Origin: Bacteroidales bacterium
GTDB lineage: Bacteria > Bacteroidota > Bacteroidia > Bacteroidales > UBA12077
Direction of reading: 5' to 3'
Length of the DNA: 54,484 nucleotides
NCBI GenBank assembly: GCA_028282785.1
Contig: JANQHE010000025.1
Coordinates: 1-54,484, forward strand
The notes under the pieces are model-generated. The model saw nothing but the letters and a program-made list of their open reading frames with translations. It had not been told where the DNA came from and made no database searches. Numbering within the stretch: position 1 is the first letter of the stretch; the number at the start of each line of letters is the position of its first letter. This document shows, piece after piece, positions 154-31,301 of the stretch. A program made the translations under genes and the position numbers.

Positions 154-747
154 TTAATTCATTGCAGGATTCTCCGGAAAGTTAGCCCACACCTTGTATT
201 TCTTACCTAACTCATCCAGAGTTTTTTTCCAGATATCTTTATCAGCAGACATTATTTTTTCCGATTCAACTCGAGTAACTAACCAGGCATTTTCTTCAAT
301 TTCACCTTCCAATTGGTTCGGACTCCAACCCGAGTATCCTAAAAAGAATCTTACCTGGACAGGCTCAACAATTCCCTCATTTATCAACTCTTTTAAACTA
401 TCAAAATCTCCGCCCCAATAAATATTATCCATAACATGCACCGAATTAGGAATTAGTTCACCTAAAGTATGTAAAAAATGGATCGTGTCCTTAGCTACAG
501 GGCCACCAATATAAACCTGAGCATTAAAATCTGGAAAATCAGCTAGTACCTCGTTTAATGGCAGATCAACAGGCTTATTTAAAACAAAACCTACGGCTCC
601 TTTATCTGAATGTTCGGTTAAAAGAACTACAGAGCGTTTAAAGTATGTGTCGGATAATAGAGGTTCCGATATTAGTATCCGACCTTGTTTAGGAGCTAGA
701 TTTTCATGTTCTATATTCAGAAAATCAAAATCGAGATACATTCCCAT
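154..747 (-). CDS. YqgE/AlgH family protein (DUF179)
   Basis: 197 residues, the usual length for the YqgE/AlgH family. Family blocks are visible: GRILISEP at about 22-29, GFVLNKP near 53-59, GGPV near 81-84, and FLGYSGWSPNQLEGEI at about 135-150. It is a cytoplasmic protein with no signal peptide or membrane segment, and its biochemical function is not established. It is encoded convergently with the class IV aminotransferase and divergently from the NhaC antiporter. Met3 is an alternative start six bases downstream. Confidence 0.93.
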   Translation of the reverse strand: MGMYLDFDFLNIEHENLAPKQGRILISEPLLSDTYFKRSVVLLTEHSDKGAVGFVLNKPVDLPLNEVLADFPDFNAQVYIGGPVAKDTIHFLHTLGELIPNSVHVMDNIYWGGDFDSLKELINEGIVEPVQVRFFLGYSGWSPNQLEGEIEENAWLVTRVESEKIMSADKDIWKKTLDELGKKYKVWANFPENPAMN

Positions 748-981
748 GATTCAAATATTATAGTTACAAAATAAAGCTTTTTATGTTAAAATCAAAATAC
801 TTAGGATCAGTTAACCTAAGATTAACATACTTACACTTACCATTTTTTCATTTTCCGGTTAATAACTGCTCAGATAATTCCTCCAAAATTTAAACCTAGG
901 CGGAGGTAATGGGTCAAAAAGCTTTATAATAATTTTTTTTTCTCTATTTTAGAGATGTTATTTTTTACAAAATAGTTGCTA

Positions 982-2937
982 ATGAATTTCTTAAATAAAA
1001 AATTAATATTCGGGATACTTCTTTCAATTCTATATGCTATCCCTTTATTTGCTGATGATTTCATTGATGAGCCTCAACTAAGTCAAAACGATGTTTCGGT
1101 TGAAATGACTGATGTTATTGTCAAAGGGATTGAGACCAAAATTAAACTTAATTTTAAAAATCCCGAATTCAGAAAGAAATTTGAAGGATACCCCGTCACG
1201 ATAAAAATAAACGATAAACCTGTAGTAGCAAGAGTTATAAAAGGAACGGCAACATTTCAATATAAATTTAATCATAAACAGGAACTTGTAATTAAGGTAT
1301 CTGATTATACTTTTACTAAAAAAGTTGATCCTATTCCTTTATGGTTTTCAATAATTCCTCCCGTAATAGCAATTCTTTTTGCTTTAATTTTTAAGGAAGT
1401 ATTTACAGCATTGTTTATAGGAATTCTGGTTGGAACTACAACTATGTTTTGGTACCAGGATACTGCTCTTATTCCTGCGATATTTAAAGGTATTTTTGCA
1501 ATAGCAGACACTTATATAATGGAAGCTTTAACAGAAAGTGGACACATGGCTATAATTGTCTTCTCAATGCTTATAGGTGCCATGGTCAATATCATTACTC
1601 GAAATGGTGGAATGAAAGGAATTGTAAACATTTTATCAAAATATGCTAATAGTCCAAAATCAGGACAATTTGTTACCTGGTTGTTAGGAATAGCCATCTT
1701 TTTTGATGATTATGCAAATACCCTGGTTGTTGGAAATACAATGCGGCCTGTTACTGACCGCTTAAAAATATCAAGAGAAAAACTTGCTTACATTGTTGAT
1801 TCTACTGCAGCGCCTATTGCGGCCATTGCATTTGTAACCACTTGGATCGGAGCAGAATTAAGTTATATACAAGATGGAATAAACACGATCGGATTAAATG
1901 AAAGTGCCTACGGTATTTTTATCAGCTCCTTGGCTTATTCCTTCTATCCTGTTTTTGCATTAATTTTTATTTTAATCCTAATTCGAAAACAGGTTGATTT
2001 TGGTCCAATGTACCATGCAGAAAAGAAAGCCAGAGAATCCGATCTAGATCTTCTTGATGATGAAAGTACAACCTTCTCAAATAAAATAAATGAACTTGAA
2101 GTACCGGATCATATAAAACCACGATGGTATAATGCCGCTATTCCGGTTCTTATTGTAATATTTGGAACATTTACCGGTTTAATTTATACAGGTTGGGATC
2201 AATCAGTTTGGCAGGATTCGGGAATATCGTTTTCAAATAAGATTTCAACGATCATAGGAAATAGCGATTCGTATAAGGCATTATTATGGTCATCAATTTC
2301 CGGTGTTTTAGTGGCAATCTTATTGACCCTGGCTCAAAAAATTCTTGATCTTAAAGCAACCATTGATAGTTTAATAAATGGATTCAGAACCATGCTTACC
2401 GCAATTATTATACTTGTATTAGCCTGGTCAATAGCTCTGGTAACTAAACATTTACATACAGCAGACTTTATTTCGCAGAGTTTAGTAACAGTTAACATTG
2501 CGCCTCAATTTATACCGGCTCTTACATTTATTTTTGCAGCTTTGGTAGCTTTCTCCACCGGATCAAGCTGGGGAACCATGGCCATCTTGTATCCATTAAT
2601 TTTACCAGCGTCCTGGTTAATTGCCCAAAATGCAGGGCTTGATTATGATGGTTCGCTTGCTATATTTTACAATGTGGTTTCGGCAGTATTAGCAGGTTCT
2701 GTATTAGGAGATCATTGCTCTCCTATTTCAGATACTACTATATTGAGCTCACTGGCCAGTTCATGTAATCATATTGAACATGTTCGTACACAGCTACCTT
2801 ATGCACTTACTGTTGGCGGAGTATCAATTGTGATTGGAACAATTCCATCAGCATTCGGAATTTCATCATGGATTTTATTTCCGGTAGGATTAATAATATT
2901 ATTCCTGATAGTAAAATTTGTGGCAAAACCGTATTAG
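982..2937 (+). CDS. NhaC-type Na+/H+ antiporter with signal peptide and N-terminal periplasmic domain
   Basis: About 651 residues. I take the ATG at 982 as the start. A TTG six bases upstream would only add two residues. A signal peptide (residues about 1-25, ending in FADD) is followed by a roughly 90-residue, probably beta-rich exported domain. The rest is a polytopic domain beginning near residue 120. Its blocks FDDYANTLVVGN, DSTAAPIAAIAF, and the late FSTGSSWGTMAILYPL and GDHCSPISDTT are typical of the Na_H_antiporter/NhaC family (PF03553). It should exchange Na+ for H+ across the inner membrane. The exported N-terminal domain is an addition to the classical family. Its stop codon ends one base before the convergent HD gene. 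Confidence 0.88.
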   Translation: MNFLNKKLIFGILLSILYAIPLFADDFIDEPQLSQNDVSVEMTDVIVKGIETKIKLNFKNPEFRKKFEGYPVTIKINDKPVVARVIKGTATFQYKFNHKQELVIKVSDYTFTKKVDPIPLWFSIIPPVIAILFALIFKEVFTALFIGILVGTTTMFWYQDTALIPAIFKGIFAIADTYIMEALTESGHMAIIVFSMLIGAMVNIITRNGGMKGIVNILSKYANSPKSGQFVTWLLGIAIFFDDYANTLVVGNTMRPVTDRLKISREKLAYIVDSTAAPIAAIAFVTTWIGAELSYIQDGINTIGLNESAYGIFISSLAYSFYPVFALIFILILIRKQVDFGPMYHAEKKARESDLDLLDDESTTFSNKINELEVPDHIKPRWYNAAIPVLIVIFGTFTGLIYTGWDQSVWQDSGISFSNKISTIIGNSDSYKALLWSSISGVLVAILLTLAQKILDLKATIDSLINGFRTMLTAIIILVLAWSIALVTKHLHTADFISQSLVTVNIAPQFIPALTFIFAALVAFSTGSSWGTMAILYPLILPASWLIAQNAGLDYDGSLAIFYNVVSAVLAGSVLGDHCSPISDTTILSSLASSCNHIEHVRTQLPYALTVGGVSIVIGTIPSAFGISSWILFPVGLIILFLIVKFVAKPY

Positions 2938-2938
2938 A

Positions 2939-3505
2939 TTAACTTCCGGATTTAATATAGGAATAAGTTTCATTATAAACTTGATCAAAATATTGATCAA
3001 GTTTTTTATTTAATCCCTTTGCTCCATCAACAACTTGCTTCGCCCAATTCAGGTATGCCAACTTTCTTTCTTGCTCCCAATTCTCAGGAGGGTCTTTTCC
3101 AATATCTTCAATATTGCTTATTTTATCAGCAATTTTTAACTTCCTGGCTCTTTCTGAAAGATCAGGAGTATGAATTACCTGTAATCTTTTACGTTCTTCA
3201 ACCGGTAATGATTTATTATCTGAAACTTCAAGTACGGTAATTAAAACTTCCTCTCCAAACTTGCTTAAAATAACATTAGAAAGTGCCTTTATCTCTTCTT
3301 CGTTTTTTGTTGTATCTTCAATAACATCGTGTAATATTGCAGCAATCAATAATTCCGGTTCATTTTCACCAACATCAGTCAATATCTTAGCAACCTGAAT
3401 AGGATGATTGATATAAGGAACCTTACTTATACCTTTCCTGGTTTGATTTCGATGCCGATCTGCAGCAAATGATATTGCTTCCAATATTTTATTTAAATCT
3501 TTCAT
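2939..3505 (-). CDS. HD-domain (p)ppGpp hydrolase-like protein, MESH1 type
   Basis: 188 residues from the ATG at 3505. The frame is open for 21 more codons upstream, but those run through a terminator hairpin (3542-3572), so I reject the longer form. The sequence follows single-domain alarmone hydrolases of the SpoT/MESH1 family: AADRHRNQTRKG, the metal-binding YINHP (His34), ILHDVIED (His59, Asp60), KIADKISN (Asp127), and a C-terminal WAKQVVDGAKG block. Members of the family remove the 3'-pyrophosphate of (p)ppGpp, and animal MESH1 also acts on NADPH. There is no synthetase, TGS or ACT domain, so this would be a hydrolase-only enzyme. Activity is inferred from the motifs. It is cytoplasmic and probably transcribed on its own. 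Confidence 0.85.
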   Translation of the reverse strand: MKDLNKILEAISFAADRHRNQTRKGISKVPYINHPIQVAKILTDVGENEPELLIAAILHDVIEDTTKNEEEIKALSNVILSKFGEEVLITVLEVSDNKSLPVEERKRLQVIHTPDLSERARKLKIADKISNIEDIGKDPPENWEQERKLAYLNWAKQVVDGAKGLNKKLDQYFDQVYNETYSYIKSGS

Positions 3506-26374: not shown

Positions 26375-26384
26375 TAATATGCGA

Positions 26385-26450
26385 TTAGCTATTTACTGTT
26401 AGCCATTGGTTATTCTTGTTATCAGTTAGAAGCTAAAAACTAAAAGCTAT
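26385..26450. repeat. Heptad-repeat inverted element between nqrA and nqrB (empty form)
   Basis: The left half is built of 7-bp units related to TTAGCTA and TTAGCCA (26385-26412). The right half has units such as AGCTAAA and AACTAAA (26424-26450), the complement of the left type. The halves can fold on each other imperfectly. The same repeat types flank the four-helix-bundle gene between nqrE and nqrF. Confidence 0.6.
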
Positions 26451-29011: not shown

Positions 29012-29629
29012 ATGGAAAACTTAGTAAATATATTTGTCAAGTCAGTTTTTATTGATAATATGATATTTGCATATTTTTTAGGAATGTGTTCTTATCTTGC
29101 TGTGTCTAAAACGGTAAAAACTTCAACTGGTTTAGGAATTGCCGTTATTTTTGTATTAGGAATTACTGTTCCTGTAGATTATTTAATTCATAATTTCTTG
29201 CTTAAAGAAGGGGCTTTAGTTTGGTTAAGTCCAAAGTTTGCCGATGTTGATTTAAGCTTTTTAAGCTTTATAATATTTATTGCGGTTATTGCATCAATGG
29301 TACAATTGGTAGAAATGATTATCGAGAAATTCTCTCCGGCATTGTATAACTCACTGGGTATATTCTTACCACTTATTGCCGTAAACTGTGCAATTTTAGG
29401 AGGTTCGTTATTTATGCAAGAACGCGAATACAATAATATTGCAGAAGCAACTGCTTTCGGACTCGGTTCAGGTTTGGGTTGGTTCCTTGCAATTGTAGGT
29501 ATTGCTGCAATTAGAGAAAAAATCAGATATTCAAATATTCCGGATCCTTTAAAAGGTCTTGGTATAACATTTATCATTACCGGTTTAATGGGAATGGCCT
29601 TTATGGGATTCATGGGAATTAAATTATAA
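29012..29629 (+). CDS. nqrE: Na+-translocating NADH:quinone reductase subunit E
   Basis: 205 residues with six membrane segments, homologous to NqrD but inverted in topology. [30 protein letters not shown] and [20 protein letters not shown] hold the conserved cysteines that bind the membrane metal centre with NqrD. A 4HB gene bordered by heptad repeats is inserted between this gene and nqrF. Confidence 0.96.
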
Positions 29630-29635
29630 TAGATA

Positions 29636-29664
29636 TTAGCACTTAGCCATTAGCTATTAGCATA
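29636..29664 (+). repeat. Left heptad-repeat block before the four-helix-bundle gene
   Basis: Four consecutive 7-bp units of the form TTAGCNN end at the ATG of the four-helix-bundle gene. The period is exactly seven bases. Together with the block at 29985-30039 it borders that gene in inverted orientation. Confidence 0.65.
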
Positions 29665-29955
29665 ATGAGAAATTTTAAAGAGTTAAATATTTGGACGGAT
29701 GGAATTAAACTTGTAAAAGAAGTTTATAAGATTTCAAAGAATCTACCTGAAAAAGAGAAGTTTGGATTAAAAAGCCAAATAAGTAGAGCTGTAGTTTCCA
29801 TTCCATCAAATATTGCAAAAGGATCCGGTAGAAACAGTGATGTTGAATTTAAAAGATATCTCGAAATAGCTATGGGTTCATCATTTGAGTTAGAAACTCA
29901 ACTAGTAATAATTGAAGAGTTAGGGTTTGTTAATGAAGAAGCTCTGGTTCCATAA
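29665..29955 (+). CDS. Four-helix-bundle protein (23S rRNA IVS/S23 family), C-terminally truncated
   Basis: 96 residues. LNIWTDGIKLVKEVYKISK, FGLKSQISRAVVSIPSNIAKGSGR and RYLEIAMGSSFELETQLVI are the conserved helices of the family found inside intervening sequences of bacterial 23S rRNA and related to the Avd protein of diversity-generating retroelements. Members usually have about 115-120 residues. The frame continues after the TAA at 29953 with FELLSIV, a second stop at 29977, then KMLNSLINKLKTNS and a normal end at 30022-30024. That is the expected fourth helix, so the gene is probably decaying or makes a shortened protein. It sits in the middle of nqr, in the same orientation. Confidence 0.8.
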   Translation: MRNFKELNIWTDGIKLVKEVYKISKNLPEKEKFGLKSQISRAVVSIPSNIAKGSGRNSDVEFKRYLEIAMGSSFELETQLVIIEELGFVNEEALVP

Positions 29956-29984
29956 TTTGAATTATTAAGTATAGTATAAAAAAT

Positions 29985-30039
29985 GCTAAATAGCCTAATT
30001 AATAAGCTAAAGACTAATAGCTAAATTCTAAAAGCTTTA
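29985..30039 (+). repeat. Right heptad-repeat block after the four-helix-bundle gene
   Basis: 7-bp units related to AGCTAAA and GACTAAT, the complement of the TTAGCNN units on the left side. The block overlaps the broken C-terminal codons of the four-helix-bundle gene and stops a few bases before nqrF. Confidence 0.6.
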
Positions 30040-30044
30040 AGACA

Positions 30045-31301
30045 ATGATATTATTAACATCAAATTTTACGGTTATTCTGTTAAGTATTGCAATATTCTT
30101 AACAATTATTCTTGCATTAGTTATGGTTCTTTTATATGCAAGAAAAAAGCTTACTCCGCAAGGACTAATGAAGCTTATAATTAATGATGAAAAAGAATTA
30201 GAAGTTAATCCGGGAAATACGCTTCTTACAACTTTATCCAATAGTGAAATTTACTTACCATCAGCATGTGGTGGAGGTGGTACTTGCGCCATGTGTAAAT
30301 GTCAGGTTTTTGAAGGAGGAGGCACAATTTTACCAACCGAGACTGGTTTTTTTACCAGAAAAGAAGCACAAAATTATTGGCGTTTAGGTTGCCAGGTAAA
30401 GGTTCGAAATGATATGAAAATTGGCATTCCTGAAGAAGTAATGGGTATTAAGAAATGGGAATGCGAAGTAATTTCTAATAAAAATGTTGCAACTTTCATC
30501 AAGGAATTTGTGGTAAAATTACCTGAAGGAGAAGAGCTTAACTTTAAATCAGGTGGTTATATCCAGATAGATGTTCCAAAAATCGAAGTTGACTTTAAAG
30601 ATATGGAAGTTGAAGAAGAATTCCGTGATGAATGGGATCAATATAACATGTGGGATTTAAAGATGAAAAATCCGGAACCTACATACAGAGCTTATTCTAT
30701 GGCTAACTATCCAAAAGAAGGAAATATCGTTAAATTAAATATTCGTATTGCTACACCTCCTTGGGACCGATCAAAAGGGGCGTTCCAAAAAGTTAACCCA
30801 GGAATTTGTTCGTCATTTATATTTTCGCTTAAACCAGGTGATAAAATAATGATTTCCGGCCCTTATGGAGAGTTCTTCATAAAAGAAACTGAACGTGAAA
30901 TGATGTATATCGGTGGTGGTGCTGGTATGGCCCCATTGCGTTCGCATATCTTTCATCTGTTCCATACATTAAAAACAGGAAGAAAGGTAACTTATTGGTA
31001 TGGAGCACGATCAAAACGCGAAGTTTTCTACGAGGATGAATTCAGAGCTATTGAAAAGGAATTTCCTAATTTCAAGTTTAACATTGCTTTATCTGAACCT
31101 AAAGAAGAAGATAATTGGACTGGTTTAACCGGATTTATACACCAGGTTGTTTACAATGAATACTTAAGCAAACATGAGGAACCAGAAGAGATCGAATATT
31201 ACTTATGTGGCCCACCTGTTATGAATGATGCTGTCCAGAAAATGATCTTTGATTTAGGAATACCAGACGAAATGTTAGCTTTTGACGATTTCGGAGGTTA
31301 A
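30045..31301 (+). CDS. nqrF: Na+-translocating NADH:quinone reductase subunit F
   Basis: 418 residues. One N-terminal membrane helix (about 8-32) is followed by a ferredoxin-like domain with the 2Fe-2S ligands Cys75, Cys81, Cys84 and Cys116. The FAD-binding block is YRAYSMANYP. The NADH domain has MMYIGGGAGMAPLRSHI and YYLCGPPVMNDAV. NqrF is the entry point for electrons from NADH on the cytoplasmic face. It ends the operon, followed by a hairpin terminator 20 bp downstream. Confidence 0.97.
   Translation: MILLTSNFTVILLSIAIFLTIILALVMVLLYARKKLTPQGLMKLIINDEKELEVNPGNTLLTTLSNSEIYLPSACGGGGTCAMCKCQVFEGGGTILPTETGFFTRKEAQNYWRLGCQVKVRNDMKIGIPEEVMGIKKWECEVISNKNVATFIKEFVVKLPEGEELNFKSGGYIQIDVPKIEVDFKDMEVEEEFRDEWDQYNMWDLKMKNPEPTYRAYSMANYPKEGNIVKLNIRIATPPWDRSKGAFQKVNPGICSSFIFSLKPGDKIMISGPYGEFFIKETEREMMYIGGGAGMAPLRSHIFHLFHTLKTGRKVTYWYGARSKREVFYEDEFRAIEKEFPNFKFNIALSEPKEEDNWTGLTGFIHQVVYNEYLSKHEEPEEIEYYLCGPPVMNDAVQKMIFDLGIPDEMLAFDDFGG

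Follow-up and report, generated by a model that had tools for sequence, protein, structure and literature searches.

A broken four-helix-bundle gene between inverted heptad arrays in a Bacteroidales nqr operon, and its likeness to 23S rRNA intervening sequences

Intervening sequences (IVSs) have been known for more than 25 years as inserts that fragment ribosomal RNA. Those in 23S rRNA genes carry a gene between terminal inverted repeats, and the element described here, which lies between nqrE and nqrF of a Bacteroidales bacterium, shares both this arrangement, with arms that can pair, and the protein family. It was analysed in a stretch of 54,484 nucleotides (assembly GCA_028282785.1, contig JANQHE010000025.1, positions 1 to 54,484), hereafter the window. 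IVSs of the same protein family are named for Coxiella, Leptospira and Brucella, and the function and origin of rRNA IVSs are called unclear (PMC4990558). The Coxiella IVS has tandem GACAGAT units before the start codon, described there as local direct repeats, and the related Xanthomonas protein 2gsc is a ring-shaped homopentamer (PMC4990558). The window element differs from the 23S rRNA IVSs in standing between protein genes and outside rRNA.

Tandem heptamers have also been described in their own right, as TAACTGA in Beggiatoaceae (PMC4679880) and as GGGAATC in Xanthomonas and GGGGA(C/T)T in Nostoc (PMC4692102). Like arms of the window type, these are seven-base tandem units in mostly intergenic positions; the Xanthomonas units form 70 and 75 inverted pairs in two genomes, a likeness to inverted arms (PMC4692102), and the Beggiatoaceae units stand mostly directly before start codons, as right arms do here (PMC4679880). 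Each published array type has one main word per genome, whereas PF05635 elements have locus-specific words, and the two papers mention neither S23/IVP nor helix-bundle genes (term counts of 0). Eighteen PF05635 genes have been reported in CRISPR-cas loci as an associated function (PMC3936711), and a structural comparison of 2GSC with Avd, a related four-helix-bundle protein of diversity-generating retroelements, has been published (PMC10053308). Full-text searches of open-licence PubMed Central, preprints excluded, returned no paper with a title or abstract opening on heptad-bounded PF05635 elements in protein operons.

A decaying element between nqrE and nqrF

We consider the feature to be, more likely than not, a copy in decay of a small and widespread insertion unit of IVS type, one that inserts between the genes of operons and whose 23S members are the known rRNA IVSs. 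Such a unit would consist of an array of about 3-5 AG-containing heptads, an S23/IVP four-helix-bundle gene and the same array inverted, and would settle between the stop and start codons of adjoining operon genes. The parts of the window copy and its host genes are as follows.

29012..29629, + strand: nqrE, upstream host gene (TIGR01940, 319 bits); the element begins after its stop codon
29635..29662, + strand: left arm, four TTAGCNN heptads with AG on the sense strand (Tandem Repeats Finder (TRF) period 7, 4.0 copies; lag-7 score 13.6)
29665..29955, + strand: four-helix-bundle (S23/IVP) gene, 96 codons, shortened by a TAA (PF05635, E 1.5e-32; TIGR02436)
29956..29994, + strand: remaining coding region past the first in-frame TAA; the second lies at 29977 (hidden Markov model (HMM) match 29677-29994)
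30000..30036, + strand: right arm, heptads of CTAA type that repeat the left arm in reverse complement (TRF period 14, 2.6 copies; inverted repeat)
30045..31301, + strand: nqrF, downstream host gene (TIGR01941, 632 bits)

The gene product matches PF05635 (23S rRNA-intervening sequence protein) and TIGR02436 (four helix bundle protein), which bears out the family assigned by the initial annotation with one correction: the profile match reaches 29994 across two in-frame TAA codons (29953 and 29977), and the region of the C-terminus is therefore broken. The heptads that had been proposed on either side, TTAGCNN on the left and inverted units on the right, are present as arrays at 29635-29662 and 30000-30036. 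These arms form an inverted pair of 26 nt, 77% complementary and 349 nt apart, and when the whole insert is folded as RNA they pair in the minimum-energy structure (-82.6 kcal/mol, z score -1.90, equalled by 2 of 100 shuffles). The sole reading frame of at least 80 amino acids between them is the PF05635 gene, and no transposase lies there.

PF05635 occurs in all 20 genomes of the genus that were searched, the window's own included, with 1 to 19 matches each; of 148 genomes sampled across the window's phylum, 116 have it. The initial annotation had allowed that all relatives might share this exact gene between nqrE and nqrF. They do not: among 18 genus genomes read at this junction, again including the window's own, a nearly full gene stands in the window genome alone. 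Both arms with an internally deleted gene are found in G002 and G023, the 3' tail of the gene with the right arm in G027, and both arms or one arm with the gene gone in G009, G008, G026, G025, G019 and G006; in G004, G007, G022, G020, G003, G024 and G021 the two nqr genes are separated by an armless spacer of 23 to 44 nt, and in G010 by one of 97 nt. Read at the sequence level, the 18 junctions appear as a decay series that runs from broken gene through deleted gene and arrays alone to armless spacer. The window copy, with its broken gene, is heading toward the solo arrays of its relatives.

A second junction, which we take to run from a hydrolase gene to a GSCFA gene, covers a like range of states. 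It holds an intact gene in G019, G022, G009, G020 and G025, a shortened or broken gene in G000, G010 and G003, remnants in G026, G002, G023 and G006, and little or nothing in G007, G004, G027, G008 and G024 and in the sister-genus genomes G178 and G176; in G005 it is interrupted by a contig end. The near-empty junctions of G007 and G027 (L137 and L150) hold a single heptad-like inverted pair, which in G027 is AGCTTTAG ... CTCAAAGC. With regard to the idea that words are fixed by the target, such a pair may be either an excision footprint or a target hairpin. Where kept, the gene is under purifying selection, as judged at the mut site (presumably a mutase pair), where the ratio of nonsynonymous to synonymous substitution rates (dN/dS) has a median of 0.14 and a maximum of 0.26 across 11 congeners.

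The window's nqr operon contains a second pair of arrays, upstream of the element.

26383..26449 (about), + strand: remnant without an open reading frame (ORF), TTAGC units then CTAA units, between nqrA and nqrB (lag-7 array 26418-26449, score 11.8)

The initial annotation had listed this stretch as an empty relative of the element. Its arrays are real; "empty" is not the right word, and the stretch is better read as a remnant without an ORF, similar in kind to the nqrE-nqrF element. RNA of the gap folds no better than shuffles (z score 0.36). In six congeners the nqrA-nqrB spacer consists of an array pair (G005), a left arm alone (G007), 33 nt (G004), or 60 to 65 nt with no clear arms (G010, G003 and G006). 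The nqrD-nqrE gap of G009 (L021), 179 nt long, contains an apparent ORF-less array pair with another word, of AATTTG type. A GC-rich palindrome of GCCTGCCGGCAGGC type, perhaps a repeat of the repetitive extragenic palindrome (REP) kind, recurs in otherwise AT-rich spacers, several times in or beside heptad arms; it was seen in the arms of L023 and L057, in the flanks of L011, L013 and L015, and in the L021 nqrD-nqrE gap.

Arms, sites and movement in relatives

We compared three sets of PF05635 loci: 45 from the genus (16 in the window's own genome and 29 in congeners), 30 from the 148 genomes across the phylum, and 80 named loci, the best 80 of at least 342 relatives. Analyses of period and arm match used 44 of the 45 genus loci (L071 was too short) and 77 of the 80 named loci (three were too short). 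L106, which has a run of N in its right flank, was counted in the phylum period and arm-match, word-protein correlation and array-density analyses, and was excluded from the polarity count over independent loci, the site classes, the co-variation count over 442 pairs, the AG-phase analysis and the wobble-pair test. Twelve named loci duplicate genomes of the congener set, and L190 and L191 have a single sequence between them. These doubles were kept in the named-set periods, the 154-locus site classes, the 442-pair co-variation count, the AG phase, the protein tree and the 110-locus enrichment; the twelve were removed from the wobble-pair test, and all thirteen from the array-to-codon distances, the orientation count over 128 loci and the co-variation count over 312 pairs.

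The best lag was 7, 14 or 21 in 56 of 88 flanks of the genus set, 39 of 60 of the phylum set and 118 of 154 of the named set, and a period of 8 occurs in some families (nrd loci L107 and L111; archaeal L189, L195 and L196). The archaeal relatives, from ANME-1, Methanophagales and Methanomicrobiales, have octad arrays of TAGCGGTT type, one of them longer than 100 nt. The two arms of a locus match as inverted repeats better than swapped arms do (19.2 against 13.4 in the genus, 18.4 against 11.2 in the phylum and 19.8 against 12.0 in the named set). Array length is 3 to 5 units in 124 of 162 arrays. Words vary between loci yet share a direction, the left arm being AG-rich: on the sense strand of 29 independent loci, G exceeds C in 26 left arms and is exceeded by C in 25 right arms, and the named set has the same polarity (40 against 7 for left arms, 42 against 7 for right arms). 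Of 54 site classes, 28 have an AG step in phase in at least 80% of units; column-permuted arrays yield a mean of 7.3 such classes and at most 13, and the opposite strand yields 4. An in-phase GC step occurs in 12 classes against 2.2 when permuted (maximum 7); it overlaps AG in AGC words, where the two effects are unseparated. In the right arm of L113, AACTGAT units stand directly before the start codon and resemble the TAACTGA repeats before start codons of Beggiatoaceae (PMC4679880).

By TRF score (35-44) the window arrays are unexceptional within the window. Lag-7 arrays scoring at least 10 number five in 294,484 bases of the window's genome (the window plus 240 kb), and two of the five fall in the window's nqr operon. 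Within 160 nt of the gene, a lag-7 array accompanies 9 of the 16 own-genome loci, against 0 to 2 for the other lags tested, from 5 to 14; among the 29 congener loci, nearby arrays were found at lag 7 in 14, at lag 14 in 13 and at other lags in 0 to 2. Heptads beside four-helix-bundle genes elsewhere, as the initial annotation anticipated, are borne out by the 110 phylum and named loci, 70 of which have a lag-7 or lag-8 array scoring at least 10 no more than 150 nt from the gene. Lag-7 density across these 110 loci is 2.68/kb within 150 nt of the gene and 0.129/kb more than 500 nt away, a 20-fold difference. Of 61 inverted array pairs, 40 enclose the four-helix-bundle gene of their own locus. 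Other cargo was looked for in the remaining 21 and discarded, these holding no frame of at least 60 amino acids, another four-helix-bundle gene, or a neighbouring host gene; 14 of the 21 come from L199. This Daejeonella locus has, at L199:4611-5526, a second four-helix-bundle gene amid several nested or tandem inverted array pairs with one word, of AAAGAAC type.

The 154 loci fall into 66 site classes, defined by similarity of the neighbouring proteins within 400-450 nt; this number is an upper estimate because one site can be split by the limited neighbour range, and L001, L060 and L072 probably share one site. Both neighbours lie on the strand of the four-helix-bundle gene in 129 of the 140 loci for which both were found (117 of 128 without doubles). 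Left arrays start at a median of +1 nt from the upstream stop codon, no more than 15 nt away in 56 of 66 cases, and right arrays extend to a median of 7 nt before the next start codon, no more than 15 nt away in 51 of 73, so that the element fills the intercistronic space. Junctions used in this way are, by names we assign from the protein sequences, sufB-sufC, nrdB-nrdA, nuoC-nuoD, metH-metF, fadB-fadA, odhB-lpd and the mutase pair. No rRNA was found within the 16 own-genome loci, the window copy sitting between nqrE and nqrF, and a search of 20 loci against Rfam at gathering score returned no family except one tRNA and no recognisable group I or II intron RNA. The proposed unit with repeat borders, inserting between the genes of operons, is well supported, and the overall interpretation of the initial annotation partly so; none of the three refuting conditions named there was fulfilled outright by the data.

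Terminal inverted repeats travel with the unit in relatives. Three cyanobacterial plasmid copies (L247, L249 and L252) have genes 77-82% identical and neighbours without significant mutual similarity (best E 0.057). Leftward from the gene their heptads are 80-95% identical for 40 nt, beyond which identity drops to 20-50%; rightward, 50-75% identity in the first 20 nt gives way to 25-40% in the stretch that follows. The archaeal genes of L189 and L196 are 93% identical and belong to different site classes; the loci share 89% identity over 511 nt that take in the arrays, and diverge beyond them. Two Mucilaginibacter junctions, metH-metF (L169, L174 and L180) and that of L200, carry one identical 30-nt arm, AGTATCAAGTAGTTAGTATCAAGTATCAAG, and a third (L176) carries a near copy.

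In the protein tree, built from 139 of the 154 proteins (no stops, at least 95 residues) with few columns and many open forks, site classes cluster, with 16 changes against 57 when shuffled. Class 3 needs 7 changes, at least 2 of them forced by supported branches, and class 1 needs 6, though a single origin is possible. The Ignavibacteriota copy at nuoC-nuoD falls apart from the Bacteroidota copies at the same junction, where a single origin is also possible.

Among the 12 cyanobacterial plasmid loci first read, the best lag was 7 in 17 of 24 flanks and 14 in 3. They include two pairs of near copies, neither of which served for mapping ends: L236 and L237 are identical far past the element, and comparison of L241 with L242 reveals no sharp edge. 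Two plasmid copies, L238 and L240, stand between cas6 and cas4, and a third, L244, between cas10 and a cmr3-family gene; arrays flank all three, and the available text of PMC3936711 on PF05635 genes in cas loci makes no mention of arrays. Six further loci were read by eye: L248 and the Gemmatimonadota copy L255 have heptads at either end, L249 and L252 have a clear left array and a short right arm, L250 has CT-type words on both sides, and L251 has a less regular pair. Carriage by phages and a defence system were considered and set aside: a search of 50,697 phage records found nothing related at E 1e-5, one query of a viral contig set was likewise negative, and PADLOC gave no match.

Likeness to 23S rRNA intervening sequences and competing explanations

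L248, on a plasmid of Azospirillum lipoferum 4B, sits inside a 23S rRNA gene, the Rfam large-subunit rRNA family RF02541 spanning 286-3342. The order there is GCTGCGGAT, heptads CAGAGGA CGGATGA CAGAGGA CGGAGGA, the gene, inverted heptads and GTGGTAGCG. The borders GCTGCGGAT and GTGGTAGCG recur in the relatives L253 and L254, where they enclose just a small hairpin; this IVS thus has the same kind of ends as the operon elements and replaces a hairpin loop. With heptads on both sides of the gene in L248 and tandem GACAGAT in Coxiella (PMC4990558), the link to 23S IVSs is stronger than first proposed. Operon elements and rRNA IVSs look, from their sequences, like one family with polar heptad ends.

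The arrays may be ends that are recognised during the unit's movement. The solved relatives found by sequence, 2gsc and 2rld, have five chains each, and a ring-shaped pentameric protein may contact evenly spaced AG steps; such reading of AG steps by a pentameric ring would explain both period and polarity. A moving enzyme, the host's or the element's, would presumably act in trans. In the transcript the arms could close the unit off as a stem, so that the host would tolerate the insert and perhaps excise it, as happens in rRNA. Sites that are co-oriented and lie at stop codons would be tolerated because the insert lies between cistrons and could be closed off or removed as RNA.

The strongest competitor holds that the arms serve mainly RNA: a stem in the polycistronic mRNA would be cut by ribonuclease III (RNase III), the insert removed and the cistrons separated, as in 23S rRNA, the heptads being a by-product of slippage in a stem under constraint to remain paired. 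We regard this as a serious possibility, although it falls short of an even chance. It agrees with the pairing of the window arms in the minimum-energy fold and with the intercistronic, co-oriented sites, and it can call on arms that change together at several sites. In that test the predicted pairing of each insertion's own arms was compared with that of arms swapped between orthologous insertions. With doubles removed, own arms paired more strongly in 109 of 120 pairs of class 1 (16 loci, p 0.0002), 37 of 45 of class 3 (10 loci, p 0.0008), 20 of 21 of class 4 (7 loci, p 0.0008) and 16 of 21 at the GSCFA site (7 loci, p 0.042), and overall in 245 of 312 pairs, or 312 of 442 with doubles. Co-variation was non-significant at the mut site (38 of 66, p 0.10) and in eight small classes. 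In an earlier version, with other arm limits and ten hand-made groups, own arms were ahead in 49 of 100 pairs (17 of 55 at mut, 16 of 21 at GSCFA), and mean pairing was -36.6 kcal/mol for own, -32.5 for swapped and -22.9 for shuffled arms.

If pairing in RNA were the reason for co-variation, G.U would replace lost pairs more often than A.C. Across 88 loci with arms aligned at a score of at least 17, no such excess was present: 131 G.U against 146 A.C of 3972 opposed positions, and 13 classes against 24. Selection of the stem at the RNA level is unsupported by this comparison. The arms do stay alike, but an RNA stem is not visibly the reason; sequence recognition or copying from arm to arm fits their likeness as well as an RNA stem does. 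The RNase III explanation also leaves the AG polarity unexplained, and the nqrA-nqrB remnant folds no better than shuffles.

A settled operon gene, inherited vertically, immobile and with a regulatory role such as binding its own mRNA, appears unlikely to us. The low dN/dS at the mut site and the clustering of the proteins by site speak for it; the 66 site classes found by neighbour similarity, the changes needed in class 3 (class 1 allowing a single origin), the frequent decay and the repetition of the unit at different plasmid sites speak against it. Slightly less credible still is movement by reverse transcription, with an Avd-like protein and a reverse transcriptase acting in trans. An intact congener protein has a weak full-length match to the Avd family PHROG 3206 (E 0.0019), the window protein has no match to it, and the published comparison of Avd with 2GSC (PMC10053308) points the same way as the congener match. 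Reverse transcriptase (PF00078) was found in 6 of 20 genus genomes, the window's included, against 20 of 20 for PF05635, several of the genomes being incomplete, and we dropped it as a partner for this inconsistent occurrence; the single PF00078 match of the window's genome is on contig C55 and the window on C23, template and variable repeats of a diversity-generating retroelement not having been sought. Least probable, and largely refuted, is that the arrays are independent short tandem repeats common in these genomes, into or near which four-helix-bundle genes insert: published arrays without a noted gene in Xanthomonas and Nostoc (PMC4692102) and Beggiatoaceae (PMC4679880), and 55 lag-7 arrays in 425 kb of far flanks, above every other lag tested, favour it, and it is contradicted by the 20-fold enrichment beside the gene, the inverted and polar arrangement, and the plasmid, archaeal and Mucilaginibacter comparisons in which arms travel with the gene between sites.

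Several observations, in addition to the null results on co-variation and wobble pairs, weigh against an IVS-type insertion unit with heptad ends. No clear target-site duplication was seen at nqrE-nqrF, the native hairpin is replaced at the 23S site of L248, and no strain-level insertion was caught. The PF05635 protein is not known to have a catalytic activity. Arrays without the gene occur, and 40 of the 110 phylum and named loci fall under score 10, with no array counted. In L238 (the Pseudanabaena plasmid copy at cas6-cas4) and L250 the left arm has right-arm orientation, the arms not being inverted. The idea that words are fixed by the protein was tried and rejected, the correlation of word with protein between sites being weak (r 0.14 and 0.22). 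Heptads as a proposed hallmark of IVSs draw on one IVS that was read, L248, and on Coxiella in print.

A broader and more doubtful extension of the insertion-unit reading, which we offer tentatively, is that rRNA IVSs are one branch of a cross-domain mobile class with polar heptad or octad ends read by a pentameric ring, and that many orphan heptamer arrays (Beggiatoaceae, Xanthomonas and cyanobacterial) are its solo footprints.

The insertion-unit reading would extend units of the IVS kind, with ends that can be defined, to operons in the window's genus, in other Bacteroidota and in cyanobacteria, to a Gemmatimonadota plasmid and to archaea. Definable ends make a poorly understood family of inserts testable, in respect of the binder of the heptads, the agent that moves the unit and the fate of the mRNA. 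They also offer an alternative reading for the S23/IVP genes counted as CRISPR-associated, and for orphan heptamer arrays.
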